Origin: Rhodospirillaceae bacterium
Lineage (GTDB): Bacteria > Pseudomonadota > Alphaproteobacteria > SHVZ01
Assembly: GCA_016792585.1 (NCBI GenBank)
Contig: JAEULB010000149.1
Coordinates: 1 to 36,842 of the forward strand
Reading direction: 5' to 3'
Length of the DNA: 36,842 nucleotides
Below are positions 22,333-28,901 of this stretch, one piece after another. Position 1 is the first letter of the stretch. Every line of letters begins with the position of its first letter. The translations under genes were made by a program, and so were the position numbers. Below the pieces are notes generated by a model that saw only the letters and a program-made list of their open reading frames with translations, made no database searches and was not told the DNA's origin.

Positions 22333-22478
22333 GGCAAGGCCTTGTCGAGAGACGTTGAAGAAAGAAGAGCACGAGAAGCCGGTCAACGCCAAGCAACGCG
22401 GATTTGAACGTACCCGGGTTGCGGCCGGCTGCCGAAGAGTCGCATCATCGGTTGCAAGAGATCGAAAGTGAGTCGCCG

Positions 22479-23399
22479 ATGATCCGGGCTCTCCTGGCCG
22501 TCACCGTCCTGTCGTTCGCCTTTCCTGCCCTCGCCGGCTCGGGCACCTGGAAGAGCGCGGCGCCGATGCCGGCGGCGCGGGCGGAGATCGCGGTGGCGGA
22601 GGTCGGCGGCCGGATCTACGCAGTGGGCGGCATCACCCATGTGCACGAGATCGAGATCTATGATCCCGCCACCGACAAGTGGACGCGCGGGGCGCCGATC
22701 CCGCGCAGCGTGCATCACCCGGCGGCGGTCGGCCTCGACGGCAAGCTCTACCTGATCGGGGGATACGTCGACGGCTGGAATCCGACCAACGAGGTGCGCG
22801 AGTACGATCCCCAGACCGACAAGTGGCGGGCGCTGGCACCCCTGCCGCATGCGCGCGGCGCGCTCGCCGCCGCGGTGCTGAACGGCAGGATCCACGCGGT
22901 CTCGGGCGTCGGCGGATCCGACCGGCAGAACACGCCGATGCACGAGGTCTACGACCCCAAGACCAACAAGTGGAAGGCGCTGGCGCCGCTGCCGACGCCG
23001 CGCGATCACCATGCGGTCGTGGCGCTCGACGGCAAGCTCTATGCGATCGGCGGACGCGTCAACGGCAGCTATGCGCGGAACCTCGGCGACAACGAGGTCT
23101 ACGATCCGGAGACCAACCGCTGGGAGAAGCGGGCGCCGCTGCCGACGATCCGGAGCGGCATCGCCGGCGCCGTGCTCGACGGCAAGATCTTCATCGTCGG
23201 CGGCGAGGCCCCGTCGGGCACCTTCAACCAGACCGAGGCCTACGATCCGAAGACCAATGTCTGGATCTCGTACAAGCGGATGCCGACGGCGCGCCACGGT
23301 CTCGGCGCCGCGGTGGTCGCGGGCAAGCTCTACGCGATCGGCGGCGGGCCGACGCCCGGCGGGTCGAACTCGGCGCTGAACGAGGTGTTCACGCCCTAG
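22479..23399 (+). CDS. Secreted six-repeat kelch beta-propeller protein
   Basis: The 306-aa protein begins with a signal peptide (IRALLAVTVLSFAFPALAG). It then contains six kelch repeats of about 45-50 residues, each with a W-x-x-x-x-P-(L/M)-P start, a GG doublet and an (E/x)xYDPxT end. It should fold as a six-bladed propeller in the periplasm or outside the cell. Propellers of this type bind proteins or sugars or, as in NanM, act as mutarotases; no catalytic residues can be assigned. The ATG at 22479 was chosen because the signal peptide starts there; a longer TTG start at 22404 adds an unlikely polar leader. Its TAG stop shares the palindrome CTAG (23396-23399) with the stop of the convergent ABC exporter. 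Confidence 0.88.
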   Translation: MIRALLAVTVLSFAFPALAGSGTWKSAAPMPAARAEIAVAEVGGRIYAVGGITHVHEIEIYDPATDKWTRGAPIPRSVHHPAAVGLDGKLYLIGGYVDGWNPTNEVREYDPQTDKWRALAPLPHARGALAAAVLNGRIHAVSGVGGSDRQNTPMHEVYDPKTNKWKALAPLPTPRDHHAVVALDGKLYAIGGRVNGSYARNLGDNEVYDPETNRWEKRAPLPTIRSGIAGAVLDGKIFIVGGEAPSGTFNQTEAYDPKTNVWISYKRMPTARHGLGAAVVAGKLYAIGGGPTPGGSNSALNEVFTP

Positions 23400-25177
23400 G
23401 ACGCGGCGGCGGCGTCCGGCGCGGCATCCTGGAACTGGGTCTTATAGAGCTTGGCGAACTCGCCGCCCTTGCCCAGCAGCTCGGCAAAGGGGCCGGCCTC
23501 GACGATCACGCCATCCTTCAGCACGACGATCCGGTCGGCCTTGAGGATGGTCGAGAGCCGGTGCGCGATGGTGAAGACGGTGCGGCCCTCGGTGAGCTTC
23601 GCCAAGCCTTCCATGACCTCGGCCTCGGTCTGCGCGTCGAGCGCGCTGGTCGGCTCGTCGAGGATCAGAACCGGGGCGTTCATCAGGATCGCGCGCGCGA
23701 TCGTCATCCGCTGCTTCTCGCCCTCCGAAAGGGCGACGCCACCCTCGCCGATCGGCTGGTCGTAGCCCTGCGGCTGGCGGGCGACGAGGCCGTCGATGCG
23801 CGCGAACCTGGCCGCCGCCTCGATCTCCTCCTGGCTCGCGTCGGGACGGCCATAGGCGATGTTGTCGCGGATCGACAGCGGGAAGATCATCGGCGGCTGG
23901 AGGACCAGAGCCACGCGGTGGCGAAGATCGCGGATCGGATACTGGCGGATGTCGACGCCGTCGAGCTCGACCGTGCCCGCCGTCGGATCGAAGAAGCGCG
24001 GCAACATCGAGAGCATCGTCGACTTGCCGGCGCCGGTCGGCCCGACCACGGCGATCTTCTCGCCCGGTCTCACATCGAGGTCGATGCGCTGCAGCACCGA
24101 GACTTCGGGAGAGTACTGGAAGGCGACGCCTTTCCAGGTGATGCGACCCTCGACCTTCTCAGGCCACGGCAGCGGCCCGTCCTTGAGGTCGGGTGCGATG
24201 TCGAGGATCTCGAACACGCGCTTGGCGCCGATGCGGGCTCCCTGGATCTGCGCCCAGGTCTGGCTCATCGTGTTGATCGGACCGTAGAGCGTCGCGAGGT
24301 AGGAGATGAAGACCAGCAGCTGGCCCAGCGTCAGGCGCGAGCTCATCACCGCCTCGGCGCCGACATAGAGGACGAGCGCAGTGCCGAGCGCGATCACGGT
24401 GTTGACGATCGCCGAATAGGCGGTCTGCCAGTTGTAGAGGCGGAGGTTGGCCCGCATGCTGGCCTGGGTCGCGGTCAGCAGGCGTAGGCGCTCGTCCTCC
24501 TCCTTGCCGAAGGCCTGGACCACGCGGATCGCGCCCATCGCCCACTGCACCAGCGAATAGACCTGGCTCTCCGTCATCTTCATCTCGGTCGCTGCGCTGA
24601 CGATCGGACGATCGAGCGCGACGATGGTGACGTAGAGCGCCGGGACCACGATCATCGAGACCATGGTCAGCGTCGAATCCATCCGCCACATGATGAAGAA
24701 CATACCGATCAGCATCGCGATCGCCTGGAGGACCGGCAGCACGCCGTTCAGCATCAGCGTCTGCACCGCGAAGGTGTCGGCGGTGATCCGGTACATGAGG
24801 TCGCCCATGCGCTGGCGGCTGTGGAAGACCAGCGAGAGGCGCTGCAGGTGGCCGTAGAGGTCGTCGCGGAGGTCGGTCACCATGCGGTGGCCGAGATTGA
24901 TCGAGACGTGGTTCGACCACATGCTGCCGAGACCGACGATCGCCTGGATCCCGACGAGCGCGGCACAGGCGACGATCAGCAGCACGGGCGTCGCCAGACC
25001 GGAGAGTCCGGGCAAGGTGACCGGCTTCCCGCTCAGCACGTTGTCGACGACGATCTGCAGCGGCCACGGCTTCACCAGCTCGAAGGCGGTAAGCGCCAGC
25101 ACCAGCAGCAGACAGAAGGCGAAGGTCCCGAGATAGGGCCGGAGATAGGGCAGGACCTTGCGAAATACCCCGCTCAT
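23396..25177 (-). CDS. ABC exporter, fused permease and ATPase (MsbA/NdvA-like)
   Basis: The 593-aa half-transporter has six membrane segments in its first about 310 residues and a C-terminal ATPase. Walker A is GPTGAGKS (379-386), the Q-loop is VLQPPM, Walker B is VLILDEPT (503-510), and the H-loop His539 is in TIAHRLS. The signature is LSEGE (483-487) rather than the usual LSGGQ; some exporters tolerate such changes. It should work as a homodimer in the inner membrane, exporting a lipid-linked or free glycan. It is the last gene of the galE-glycosyltransferase-exporter operon, only 20 nt after the glycosyltransferase, so the product of that enzyme is the most likely cargo. The ATG at 25177 fits the family start. 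Confidence 0.92.
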   Translation of the reverse strand: MSGVFRKVLPYLRPYLGTFAFCLLLVLALTAFELVKPWPLQIVVDNVLSGKPVTLPGLSGLATPVLLIVACAALVGIQAIVGLGSMWSNHVSINLGHRMVTDLRDDLYGHLQRLSLVFHSRQRMGDLMYRITADTFAVQTLMLNGVLPVLQAIAMLIGMFFIMWRMDSTLTMVSMIVVPALYVTIVALDRPIVSAATEMKMTESQVYSLVQWAMGAIRVVQAFGKEEDERLRLLTATQASMRANLRLYNWQTAYSAIVNTVIALGTALVLYVGAEAVMSSRLTLGQLLVFISYLATLYGPINTMSQTWAQIQGARIGAKRVFEILDIAPDLKDGPLPWPEKVEGRITWKGVAFQYSPEVSVLQRIDLDVRPGEKIAVVGPTGAGKSTMLSMLPRFFDPTAGTVELDGVDIRQYPIRDLRHRVALVLQPPMIFPLSIRDNIAYGRPDASQEEIEAAARFARIDGLVARQPQGYDQPIGEGGVALSEGEKQRMTIARAILMNAPVLILDEPTSALDAQTEAEVMEGLAKLTEGRTVFTIAHRLSTILKADRIVVLKDGVIVEAGPFAELLGKGGEFAKLYKTQFQDAAPDAAAAS

Positions 25178-25197: not shown

Positions 25198-27774
25198 TTA
25201 CGGCGTGACGGAGCCGCGCTCGGCCAGCGACATGAGCCCGATGCGGCCGGCGACGATCTCCGTCACCCGATGCAACACGCGCCCCAAGCGGAAGGTTTCA
25301 TAGGCGATGGCCGCGCCGTTGAGGACGCCGACCGCGAGCGCCGCCACGGCCACCGCGGGCACCCCGAACAGAAGGCCCGCAATCGCCACGCCGCCATAGA
25401 TCCTCAAGACCAGAGAGGACAGGCGCGAGAGCCGGAGCGCCACCCGGAGCCGGACCAGGCGCTTCGGATCGCCGTGGTTCTCGCCGACCGCCTTGAGTTC
25501 GGCCCTGGCCCAGAGGCCGCGGCTGACCTTCAGGTCCCAGTCGCTCCAGCCCTGGTCCATGATCACGAAGTACTTCCTCGGCACCAGGAAGTCGTGAATG
25601 CCGGTCAGGAGGGCTTCCTTCTCGATCCCCTTCTCGTTCCAGTAGGAGAGATAGAAGGCACGCTGAGCCGGCTTGATCTCGGCCGTCTGGCGGACCGGCT
25701 CGTACTGGATCGGGTCGACCTGGGTCAGGCCCTTCACGCGCCATTTGACGCGTTCCCAGCCGCGGGCGAAGGGGCCTGCATAGATCAGGAAAGCGATCAG
25801 GGCGCGGGCCCTGAGCCCGGTGAAGCGCGGATCGACCGGTGCGCGCATCGCACCGGCGATCGCGATCGCGAACGACAGCAGCAGCGGCAGGACCGCGAGC
25901 CACATCGTGCCGCCGGCGATGGCGCCGGCGAGCGCCAGCGGCCAGGAGACCAGGCCCCATTCGAAGGTCAGCGGCAGATATGCCGCGATCGACGACGGCG
26001 GCTCGTAGAGCGTCTGGAACAGACCGCGGCCGAAGATGCCGGAATAGATGATCGGCTTGGACGACAGCAGCATCGAGGCCGAGAGGTCGCCGTAGATGCG
26101 CCCCAGCCACTTCGCCTGGCCAAACAGGTTGAAGCGGAACGGATGCTTGGCATAGACCATCGCCTCGGCCTTGCCGTATCCCCGCTGCTGGCCGAAATAG
26201 GCCTCCACCGTGTTGCGGCGGAAATGCCAGACGGTCGCCGACGGGCTGAAGCCGATCTTGTATCCAGCGAACTGGAGGCGCCAGCACAGGTCGACGTCGT
26301 CGCCGGCGGCGCGGAAGATCGGGTCGAAGCCGCCGATCGCCTCCAGCGCCTCGCGGCGGAAGGCCATGTTGCAGCCGGCGATGTGCTCGGCCTCGTCGTC
26401 GGAGACGAGAACGTGGGTGGGTCCGCCCGGAGAGACGGCGACCGCCGACGGCACCAGCGAATCCTCGGGCGGCGGGAAGTTCGGGCCACCGCAGGCATAG
26501 AGATCGGCCGCCTGCATCTTGGCGACCATGTAGGTCAGCCAGTCTGGATCGGCGACGCAGTCGGAGTCGGTATAGGCGATGATCTCGCCGGTCGAGTGCT
26601 GCAGGCCGACGTTGCGAGCGACCGAGAGGCCCTTGTTCTCTTGGCTGACGATCTTGGTGTAGCCGTGGCGCTCGGTGATCTCGAGCGTCTTGTCCTTCGA
26701 GCCGTCGTTGACGACCACCACTTCGTAGTTCGGATAGGTCAGCTTCTTCAGCGACTCGAGGCACGGATCCATCGTGCGCTCGGCGTTGTAGGCGCAGACC
26801 ACGACCGAAACCTTCGGGTACGAGGCGAGCTTCGGCGGCAGGGTCTCGTGATAGACCTTGCGGACCGCATGGTACGAGGGCTTCGGCTCGCGCTTGTGGT
26901 CGACCAGGCCAAAGGCCCAGTTCTCGATCAGGTAGCCGCCGGTGAACCACTCGTCGGTCCAGGCGAAGATCGAGGTGCCGGCGACGCCGGTCTCGTAAGC
27001 CGCACGCACCTGCCACTCCAGCGTCTTCGCCTGCGCCTCGAGGCCTTCGCGCATCGAGTCCATGCCGAACTCGGTCAGCACCACCGGCCGGTCGACGGCC
27101 AGGTTGTGAAGCCGCATCAGGTAGGCGCGGAAGTCCTTCTCGTGGTGGAGATAGACGTTGAACGAGAGGAAGTCGAAGAAGTCGAGGTTGAGATACTCGG
27201 TCGACGGATAGTTCGCGTAGGAGACGAGCCCGTCGGGATCGATCTCCTTGGCGATGTCGTAGAGCTCCTCGAGGAAGTTCCGGACCTTTTCGGCGCCGTG
27301 CCAGCGGACGATGTCGGGCGAGATCTCGTTGCCGACCAGATGCGCGATCACCGCCGGATGGCCGGCATTGACCTTCACGCCGTCGCGGATCGCCTGGCGG
27401 ATGCGGTTCTTCTCCGCGCGCGAATCCAGGAAGGCGACATGCTGGGTCCAGGGGACGCCGATCAGCATGCCGACGCCGGCTTCGTGGCACATGTCCGCGA
27501 ACCAGCGCGGCGGCACCGTGAAGACGCGCAGCATGTTGCAGCCGAGCTCGCCCATCAGCGCGAGGTCGCGCGCGATGACATCCTTCTCGGGAAGCTGGGC
27601 GCCGTGGGTGCCGGGGCCGAACGGGCCGTAGGTAACGCCCTTGAGGAAGACCTTCTCCTCGCCACGGAAGAAGAACTTTCCATGTGCGACGATGCGCGAC
27701 GTGCTCGCGCCCTTGGGCTTATCGACGCCGGCCGGCGCCGCCTGTGACGCCGGCTCGGCCATGACGACGGACAT
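25198..27774 (-). CDS. Fusion of a glycoside hydrolase-like barrel and a family 2 glycosyltransferase
   Basis: The 858-aa protein has three parts. Residues about 30-315 read as a clan GH-A barrel: GKFFFRGEEKVFLKGVTYG at the start, the likely acid/base Glu150 in HLVGNEIS and the likely nucleophile Glu235 in VVLTEFGMDS. Residues about 320-560 are a GT2 catalytic domain (VSVVVCAYNAERT, VVVVNDGSKDKT, DSD at 403-405, the base region GDDVDLCWR at 491-499 and a QQRGYG motif near 539-544 in the place of QxxRW). The rest carries membrane segments (about 608-652, 667-680 and 800-835) around a basic cytoplasmic domain. No signal peptide precedes the barrel, so both active sites should face the cytoplasm. 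It lies 23 nt after galE and 20 nt before the exporter. The product is unknown; a processive synthase with a built-in trimming or transfer activity is my inference. Confidence 0.85.
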   Translation of the reverse strand: MSVVMAEPASQAAPAGVDKPKGASTSRIVAHGKFFFRGEEKVFLKGVTYGPFGPGTHGAQLPEKDVIARDLALMGELGCNMLRVFTVPPRWFADMCHEAGVGMLIGVPWTQHVAFLDSRAEKNRIRQAIRDGVKVNAGHPAVIAHLVGNEISPDIVRWHGAEKVRNFLEELYDIAKEIDPDGLVSYANYPSTEYLNLDFFDFLSFNVYLHHEKDFRAYLMRLHNLAVDRPVVLTEFGMDSMREGLEAQAKTLEWQVRAAYETGVAGTSIFAWTDEWFTGGYLIENWAFGLVDHKREPKPSYHAVRKVYHETLPPKLASYPKVSVVVCAYNAERTMDPCLESLKKLTYPNYEVVVVNDGSKDKTLEITERHGYTKIVSQENKGLSVARNVGLQHSTGEIIAYTDSDCVADPDWLTYMVAKMQAADLYACGGPNFPPPEDSLVPSAVAVSPGGPTHVLVSDDEAEHIAGCNMAFRREALEAIGGFDPIFRAAGDDVDLCWRLQFAGYKIGFSPSATVWHFRRNTVEAYFGQQRGYGKAEAMVYAKHPFRFNLFGQAKWLGRIYGDLSASMLLSSKPIIYSGIFGRGLFQTLYEPPSSIAAYLPLTFEWGLVSWPLALAGAIAGGTMWLAVLPLLLSFAIAIAGAMRAPVDPRFTGLRARALIAFLIYAGPFARGWERVKWRVKGLTQVDPIQYEPVRQTAEIKPAQRAFYLSYWNEKGIEKEALLTGIHDFLVPRKYFVIMDQGWSDWDLKVSRGLWARAELKAVGENHGDPKRLVRLRVALRLSRLSSLVLRIYGGVAIAGLLFGVPAVAVAALAVGVLNGAAIAYETFRLGRVLHRVTEIVAGRIGLMSLAERGSVTP

Positions 27775-27797: not shown

Positions 27798-28802
27798 TCA
27801 GACCGCAGCGGCAGCGAGCGGCCGATCCTCGGGCCGCTCATGCCAGCGGAGAGCCGAGGTGACGATCGTGTCGAGATCCGATCGGCTCGGAATCCAGTCG
27901 AGCTTGAGCCTCGCCTGGCTCGCATCGGCAACCAGCGCCGGCGGGTCTCCGGCACGGCGCGGCGCCTCGATCACCGGAACCGGGCGGCCGGTCGCGCGCT
28001 CGACGGCGCCGATGACCTCGCGGACGGTGTGCCCGCGGCCGGTGCCGAGATTGAGCTTCAGCGATGGGCCGCCGTGCAGGAGATGGCGCAACGCCTGGAC
28101 ATGCGCCTCGGCGAGGTCCTCGACGTGGATGAAGTCGCGGATCGCGGTGCCGTCCGGCGTCGGGTAGTCGGTGCCGAAGATGCTGAGCGCCGGCCCCTGA
28201 CCCAGTGCCGCCTTGATCGCCAGCGGGATCAGATGAGTCTCGGGCTCGTGGTCCTCGCCGATCTCGCCATCGAGGTCGGCGCCGGCGGCGTTGAAGTAGC
28301 GAAGGCAGACCGACTTGGTCTCGTAGGCCTGGTCGTACCAGTCGAGCACGCGCTCGATCATCAGCTTCGATTCGCCATACGGATTGACCGGACGCTGCGG
28401 CGTGGTCTCGGCGATCGGGACCTCGCCGGGAATGCCGTAGGTGGCGCAGGTCGAGGAGAAGACCATGCGGTCAACGCCGACGTCGCGCATCGCGTCCAGC
28501 AGTGTCAGGGTGCCTGTCGTGTTGTTGCGGAAGTACTTGGCCGGATCGCTCATCGACTCGCCGACATAGGCGAAGGCGGCGAAGTGCATAACCGCGACCA
28601 CGCGCTCGGCCGAGAGCACGGCGCGAAGGCGCGGACCGTCGGCGATGTCGCCGTCGACCAACGGTCCCCACTTCACGGCCTCGGTGTGGCCGTAGGTGAG
28701 ATTGTCGTAGGCAATTGGACGGAAGCCGGCGCGAGCGAGCGCCTTGCAGGCATGGCTGCCGATGTAGCCGGCGCCGCCGGTGACGAGAACGGAGGCGTTC
28801 AT
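27798..28802 (-). CDS. galE: UDP-glucose 4-epimerase GalE/ExoB
   Basis: The enzyme interconverts UDP-glucose and UDP-galactose using bound NAD. The 334-aa short-chain dehydrogenase-type protein has the NAD motif GGAGYIGSH (9-17), the SSTCATYG block with Thr118 at the catalytic Ser/Thr position, and Tyr142 and Lys146 of the YxxxK pair, followed by LRYFNAAGAD and the DFIHVEDLA block. An upstream ATG at 28859 would add 19 residues; I prefer 28802 because the Rossmann strand starts there and AGGAGA lies about 10 nt upstream. It is the first gene of the operon and may supply UDP-galactose to the downstream glycosyltransferase, although a housekeeping role is also possible. Confidence 0.93.
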   Translation of the reverse strand: MNASVLVTGGAGYIGSHACKALARAGFRPIAYDNLTYGHTEAVKWGPLVDGDIADGPRLRAVLSAERVVAVMHFAAFAYVGESMSDPAKYFRNNTTGTLTLLDAMRDVGVDRMVFSSTCATYGIPGEVPIAETTPQRPVNPYGESKLMIERVLDWYDQAYETKSVCLRYFNAAGADLDGEIGEDHEPETHLIPLAIKAALGQGPALSIFGTDYPTPDGTAIRDFIHVEDLAEAHVQALRHLLHGGPSLKLNLGTGRGHTVREVIGAVERATGRPVPVIEAPRRAGDPPALVADASQARLKLDWIPSRSDLDTIVTSALRWHERPEDRPLAAAAV

Positions 28803-28901
28803 GCCCGAGCCGTCTCCTGAATGCTGCTCACCACCATACCGTCCCTCTGAGTGGCCCATGTCCTCGTGGCTCCTCCGGGAACCGCGCGCTTGGATCAGCG
28901 C

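Follow-up and report, generated by a model that had tools for sequence, protein, structure and literature searches.

A conserved fusion of a GH157/GH2-like glycosidase barrel with a family 2 glycosyltransferase, and its neighbouring ABC exporter

Described synthases with glycosidase-type domains

The systems nearest in working principle to the locus described here are NdvB and the pair Cgs/NdvA, in which the product of Cgs is exported by the ABC protein NdvA, and the features of membership that we tested fail for both. In the available part of PMC10237404, the pseudomonad Orphan/NdvB proteins have a GH17 domain first and a GT2 domain second and are proposed to be cyclic beta-1,3-glucan synthases; the meaning of the Q(Q/R)xRW motif of NdvB/BcsA-type processive synthases is taken from the same part. 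Cgs, according to the accessible sections of PMC11842490, has a mass of approximately 300 kDa and includes a GH94 domain as well as a GH144/GH162-related cyclisation domain. Among the hydrolases, clan GH-A is defined in the available portion of PMC7157763 by an acid/base glutamate after strand beta4 and a nucleophile glutamate at beta7; in GH158, according to the same portion, an N-E pair follows beta4 and a glutamate follows beta7, with activity lost upon mutation of N136, E137 or E220. Linear beta-1,3-glucan is the substrate of a GH157 enzyme for which activity on pustulan was not detectable, as given in the accessible text of PMC10229575.

The window analysed here, a contig of 36,842 nucleotides from a Rhodospirillaceae bacterium, encodes on its minus strand (25198-27774) a GH-GT2 fusion protein of 858 amino acids, the ORF of which starts with ATG, is uninterrupted and has full-length relatives. 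Like NdvB, as far as its partial description goes, the protein is a single membrane-bound polypeptide with a glycosidase barrel before the GT2 domain. The sequence-only reading of this locus had taken that order to be without precedent, a claim that falls with the GH17-first, GT2-second arrangement of NdvB (PMC10237404, available part). On the same partial description, the real differences from NdvB lie in the barrel family, the lack of a membrane region between the domains, the QQxGYG-type motif and the ABC partner. The NdvB barrel is GH17, whereas that of the fusion is GH157/GH2-like and gave no match to the Pfam GH17 model (PF00332) at E ≤ 1, consistent with the earlier expectation of a different hydrolase family. 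NdvB has a signal peptide, a periplasmic modelled barrel and a transmembrane region between its domains, whereas the fusion lacks a signal peptide and no comparable region between barrel and GT2 is predicted from its model and hydropathy. The QRxRW motif of NdvB is QQxGYG-type in the fusion, and Q(Q/R)xRW is absent from all 73 rows of our wider alignment; this replacement speaks against a processive channel of the BcsA type and suits a separate exporter, the conserved ABC partner being counted here as a difference from NdvB in its own right.

With Cgs, as partially described, the fusion has in common that one membrane protein combines GT2 with a glycosidase-type domain that processes and cyclises the chain or may do so, and that an ABC protein exports, or here would export, the product; it differs in size (858 aa against approximately 300 kDa), and neither the GH144/GH162-related nor the GH94 domain of Cgs was matched in it by Pfam at E ≤ 1. 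The exporter encoded beside the fusion reached 285.4 of 585.4 and 373.6 of 733 bits against the NdvA/ChvA models TIGR01192 and NF010178, respectively, below their cut-offs. For the GT2 domain, the best NCBIfam match was MftF (TIGR03965, 159.7 bits), although the score is below the cut-off of 280 and the match is limited to residues 316-549.

Domains and active sites of the fusion protein

Conservation was assessed in two aligned sets. The first combined the window protein with 120 homologues (62-91% identity), the best 120 of 7971 proteins with E ≤ 0.001 among 7994 scored; as 120 of the 7971 were listed, the fused state is not claimed for all of these matches. The second, a wider alignment of fused proteins, drew on at least 80 loci, from which 19 that matched GT2 alone (L099-L117) and eight that were near-duplicate, truncated or broken (L038, L060, L087, L088, L093, L094, L097 and L098) were omitted; 53 loci were tried, L046 and L065 were removed for stops, and the 73 rows of the alignment have 37-84% identity to the window protein. 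Residues E150, E235, D403, D405, D492 and D493 are invariant in both sets (121/121 and 73/73). With 22 rows common to the two and two locus rows contained in listed proteins, the sets hold 170 distinct sequences, every one of which, down to 37% identity, keeps both barrel glutamates and the GT2 aspartates. The fusion is a conserved protein family and not a chance ORF.

The N-terminal clan GH-A barrel spans residues ~27-312 (26839-27696, minus strand), as supported by AlphaFold2, a profile match, Foldseek and VIA. In the AlphaFold2 model (mean pLDDT 86.6, pTM 0.81, built on 73 aligned sequences), all eight strands of a (beta/alpha)8 barrel are present, with Glu150 (27325-27327, minus strand), the predicted acid/base within a GNE motif, immediately after beta4 (142-149), and Glu235 (27070-27072, minus strand), the predicted nucleophile, at the end of beta7 (231-236). 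The Asn preceding E150 is found in 71 of the 73 rows, with Lys in the other two. Barrel fold, Asn-Glu after beta4 and Glu at beta7 together place the domain in clan GH-A, and Pfam matched Glyco_hydro_2_C at residues 64-250 (1e-7, above cut-off) and Glyco_hydro_72 at residues 25-152 (4e-5, slightly under cut-off).

Comparison of the barrel profile with solved proteins gave LaGH157 as the best match (1.3e-23), ahead of the best GH2 protein (8.1e-14) and of matches over part of the barrel to GH158 (2.6e-8) and a 1,3-beta-glucanosyltransferase (8.9e-7). LaGH157 (PDB 9g4n/9fz9/9g5g), whose solved chains carry names as GH proteins only, also ranked first in Foldseek, in a structure with laminaritriose and laminaribiose, and GH2 beta-glucuronidases were almost level with GH157 in the structure comparison. 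By sequence profile, GH157, an endo-beta-1,3-glucanase family, is the nearest solved relative. In the alignment with LaGH157, E235 is opposite E224, the residue mutated in 9g4n, E150 falls on the Glu of the NE motif, and N206, Y208, D274 and G279-G280 face identical residues, although the barrels are only about 20% identical; a search of the open-licence literature returned no paper on PDB 9FZ9, 9G5G or 9G4N. In the accessible part of its description, the GH157 enzyme of Bacteroides cellulosilyticus differs in being degradative and predicted at the cell surface. The GH2 beta-glucuronidases and galacturonidases differ in their pre-barrel domains, which are missing in the fusion, where the barrel begins at about residue 27; no GH2 sugar-binding or Ig-like domain was matched, PF02836 being the only GH2 model with a match at E ≤ 1.

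The GT2 (GT-A) domain covers residues ~320-560 (26095-26817, minus strand) and matches Glycos_transf_2 (PF00535) at residues 323-480 (6.3e-35; 121 bits vs a cut-off of 23.3). Its DSD (DxD) motif lies at residues 403-405 (26560-26568, minus strand) and its GDD motif, the predicted catalytic base region, at 491-493 (26296-26304, minus strand), the latter being GDD in 71 of 73 rows and ADD in two; the PF00535 match, the DxD and the DD base motif identify the region as GT2. The QQxGYG-type sequence occupies residues 529-534, with Tyr533 in place of Trp in 73/73 rows. The sequence-only reading had proposed a GH-A-like barrel in the N-terminal half, for which Pfam, the AlphaFold2 fold and the LaGH157 profile match now agree, and it had located Glu150, Glu235, DSD and GDD correctly; the profile search that it suggested led from the barrel to GH-A relatives and from residues 320-560 to PF00535.

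Neither a signal peptide nor any hydrophobic segment N-terminal of about residue 604 was seen in the AlphaFold2 model or the hydropathy scan, and residues 1-23, which have low AlphaFold2 confidence, contain no hydrophobic stretch. The first membrane region consists of helices 604-620, 622-644 and 654-685 (25720-25965, minus strand; AlphaFold2 and hydropathy), with 625-643 the stretch best supported by hydropathy. It is followed in residues 686-858 (25201-25719, minus strand) by a C-terminal alpha/beta domain and a second membrane hairpin; E765 and H767 of this domain are present in 67/67 rows that reach it, and no solved fold was matched with confidence. Across the wider alignment, 70 of 73 rows have no 19-residue window above the hydropathy threshold before query residue 560, and the remaining three barely exceed it, two of them in the same barrel segment. 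From residue 299 to 320, a stretch that is partly the last barrel helix in the model, 66 of 73 rows have a spacing of 21 residues. Because the helices begin only at about 604 and residues 1-23 are non-hydrophobic, barrel and GT2 are predicted to share one side of the membrane, which would be the cytoplasmic side, given that GT2 enzymes use nucleotide sugars. Both active sites are thus predicted to face the cytoplasm. On topology, then, structure prediction sides with the earlier reading, which had expected no signal peptide and a hydrolase-type site next to a synthase site on the cytoplasmic side.

Distribution and gene neighbourhood

A whole-protein search of the genomes of 60 relatives gave matches in 48, mostly to GT2 alone. 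Among the matches listed, the barrel was present in eight (the window's genome, five of the same genus, one of the same family, and one in which the gene is divided between two contigs) and weakly in a ninth (G041). A sample of the class had a barrel match (E ≤ 1e-8) in 16 of 385 genomes, 14 of them with members of the fused family (in one case divided between two contigs) and two with remote matches. In a sample of the phylum, 2 of 398 genomes matched, one being that of the window and the other matching through a GH2-type protein. Full-length fusions among the at least 80 loci scanned came from Alphaproteobacteria, Cyanobacteria (Nostoc, Tolypothrix, Brasilonema, Scytonema and Synechococcus), Binatia, Deltaproteobacteria, Nitrospirae, Nitrospinae, Verrucomicrobia, Planctomycetes, Bacteroidetes, Acidobacteria, Chloroflexi, Actinobacteria and Omnitrophota, these names being submitters' record labels, many from MAGs. 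The labels of L038, L087 and L058 look unreliable (Rhizobium and Asaia on 91%-identical relatives, Klebsiella on another). Five carrier genomes searched whole had one fused copy apiece, one of them with an extra remote match. Annotation names of the relatives among the matches listed include 'GT2 family glycosyltransferase' and 'O-antigen biosynthesis protein'.

In the window, the fusion is the middle gene of a tight same-strand run. The gene for UDP-glucose 4-epimerase, galE (27798-28859, minus strand; TIGR01179, 421.4 bits vs a cut-off of 262.3), lies 23 bp upstream, and an ABC exporter half-transporter (23396-25177, minus strand) lies 20 bp downstream. The latter joins a membrane domain (PF00664, 6.5e-39) and an ATPase domain (PF00005, 1.3e-30) in one chain, as in MsbA-like half-transporters, and among its best 25 NCBIfam matches listed no model exceeded its cut-off. 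Convergent with the exporter gene is a Kelch-repeat protein (22404-23399, plus strand) with an apparent signal peptide and sub-cut-off similarity to NCBIfam N-acetylneuraminate epimerase models.

For the neighbour count we used 60 loci (L098 left out), of which 58 were fused, as L060 and L094 fail the fused criterion; three of the 58 had less than 1.5 kb downstream, leaving 55 scored for the exporter. An ABC exporter on the same strand was found within 1.5 kb downstream in 44 of the 55 and within 6.5 kb in 47, loci that are not independent since several are close relatives; for relatives below 50% identity the corresponding counts were 15 and 18 of 25. By comparison, an exporter stood downstream on the opposite strand in 2/55 and anywhere upstream in 3/48 fused loci, and galE within 1 kb upstream in 18/48. 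This downstream pairing with an ABC exporter in most fused loci is new here. At a few distant loci, the downstream genes scanned encode hexapeptide transferases, a pyruvyl transferase, GDSL, acyltransferase and YdjC-like proteins, and a methyltransferase, the hexapeptide, pyruvyl and acyl transferases being likely glycan decoration enzymes. A family of ~400 aa, with some members weakly Glyco_trans_1_2-like, occurs in 27 of 61 loci (for example, L066:14284-15489 and L090:5956-7170). The window's genome has two unlinked copies of this family, which are 64% and 59% identical to the L066 protein.

Five filamentous cyanobacterial loci, four in the alignment and the fifth outside it, have a split version in which barrel and GT2 form one ORF and the C-terminal domain the next (L046:12074-12637, L050:12074-12637, L054:12022-12654, L061:12023-12607 and L063:12023-12607), after which two ABC half-transporter genes stand in place of a single one; the stand-alone C-terminal copy had no Pfam match. 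The same five loci carry a ~790-aa protein upstream within the fetched flank, and the sole copy scanned (L046:7140-9488) has NACHT and NCH2 domains.

A proposed export system and its alternatives

The account that we place first, though tentatively, is that galE, fusion and exporter may be one system, in which a cytoplasmic-face GT2 builds a beta-linked glycan, the barrel cuts and re-joins it, and the exporter ships it. Judged by its family, GalE would keep UDP-glucose and UDP-galactose in balance; the GT2 domain, anchored by the helices from about 604, would on the evidence of its motifs extend the glycan from a UDP-sugar. The first candidate substrate is a beta-1,3-glucan-type chain. The barrel may then attack the nascent chain by a two-step retaining route in which Glu235 would be the nucleophile and Glu150 the acid/base, and the covalently held piece would most probably pass to a sugar hydroxyl rather than to water; were the acceptor the chain's own end, a ring would result, and with another acceptor a set length. 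As the conserved gene order suggests, the ABC half-transporter would act as the flippase that takes the finished oligosaccharide over the inner membrane. A role of the barrel in cutting, cyclising or transferring the chain is plausible, but the transfer step is the weakest link of the mechanism, with a trimming hydrolase as a close rival. The broader version is less likely than not: it would make these proteins an undescribed, widespread class of cytoplasmic-face synthases with a dedicated ABC exporter, in which the GH157-like barrel is the cyclising or resizing transglycosylase of its fused GT2, and so, under the same joint reading, a third, independent route, next to those of Cgs and NdvB, to glucans that are cyclic or controlled in size.

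The barrel may instead be a plain retaining hydrolase, a reading that we consider possible without expecting it to prevail, which, before export, trims or proof-reads the GT2 chain or frees it from, say, a lipid or protein carrier; the acceptor would then be water, with neither ring nor transfer. Its nearest solved relatives (GH157, GH2 glucuronidases and GH158) hydrolyse, and both glutamates are kept, but such an enzyme next to a synthase would waste product unless controlled; the fixed fusion and the constant spacing suit chain handover equally well and are not decisive. An unlikely alternative is a lipid-linked heteropolysaccharide pathway to which the GT2 domain contributes one or a few sugars, with the exporter as a PglK/HepA-like ABC flippase and the barrel editing the lipid-linked unit. 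The QQxGYG-type motif in place of QxxRW, MftF as the best, though sub-cut-off, NCBIfam glycosyltransferase model, and the decoration enzymes and GT-B-like partners at distant loci all point that way, but galE and the exporter are the only same-strand genes adjoining the fusion in the window, and no initiating phosphoglycosyltransferase was found among the minority of neighbours scanned. Enzyme-derived modules can turn into binding domains, but a non-catalytic, glycan-holding barrel is very improbable here, as the catalytic pair kept in 170/170 distinct sequences and the Asn before the acid/base in 71/73 rows would be needless for binding.

Within the literature searched, this synthase-hydrolase fusion with its partner exporter is real, conserved and uncharacterised. 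Among the papers listed by open-licence searches, no title or abstract describes a GH157/GH2-like barrel-GT2 fusion with an ABC partner, which is weak evidence of absence, and the available part of the text of PMC5352709 contains neither 'fusion' nor 'fused'. The outcomes that the sequence-only reading had named as speaking against it (no GH-A homology, loss of the glutamates, or a published function) did not appear in the data reached.

Glycosidases are mostly known for degradation, whereas here one is built into a synthase, is predicted to be cytoplasmic, and has an active site that is invariant across the aligned members from many phyla. If the barrel transfers and does not hydrolyse, it would open a new path to glycans that are cyclic or of controlled length, and glycan synthesis would gain a compact, single-chain tool. 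Should it merely trim, the locus would still represent a common glycan export system that present annotation names hide.
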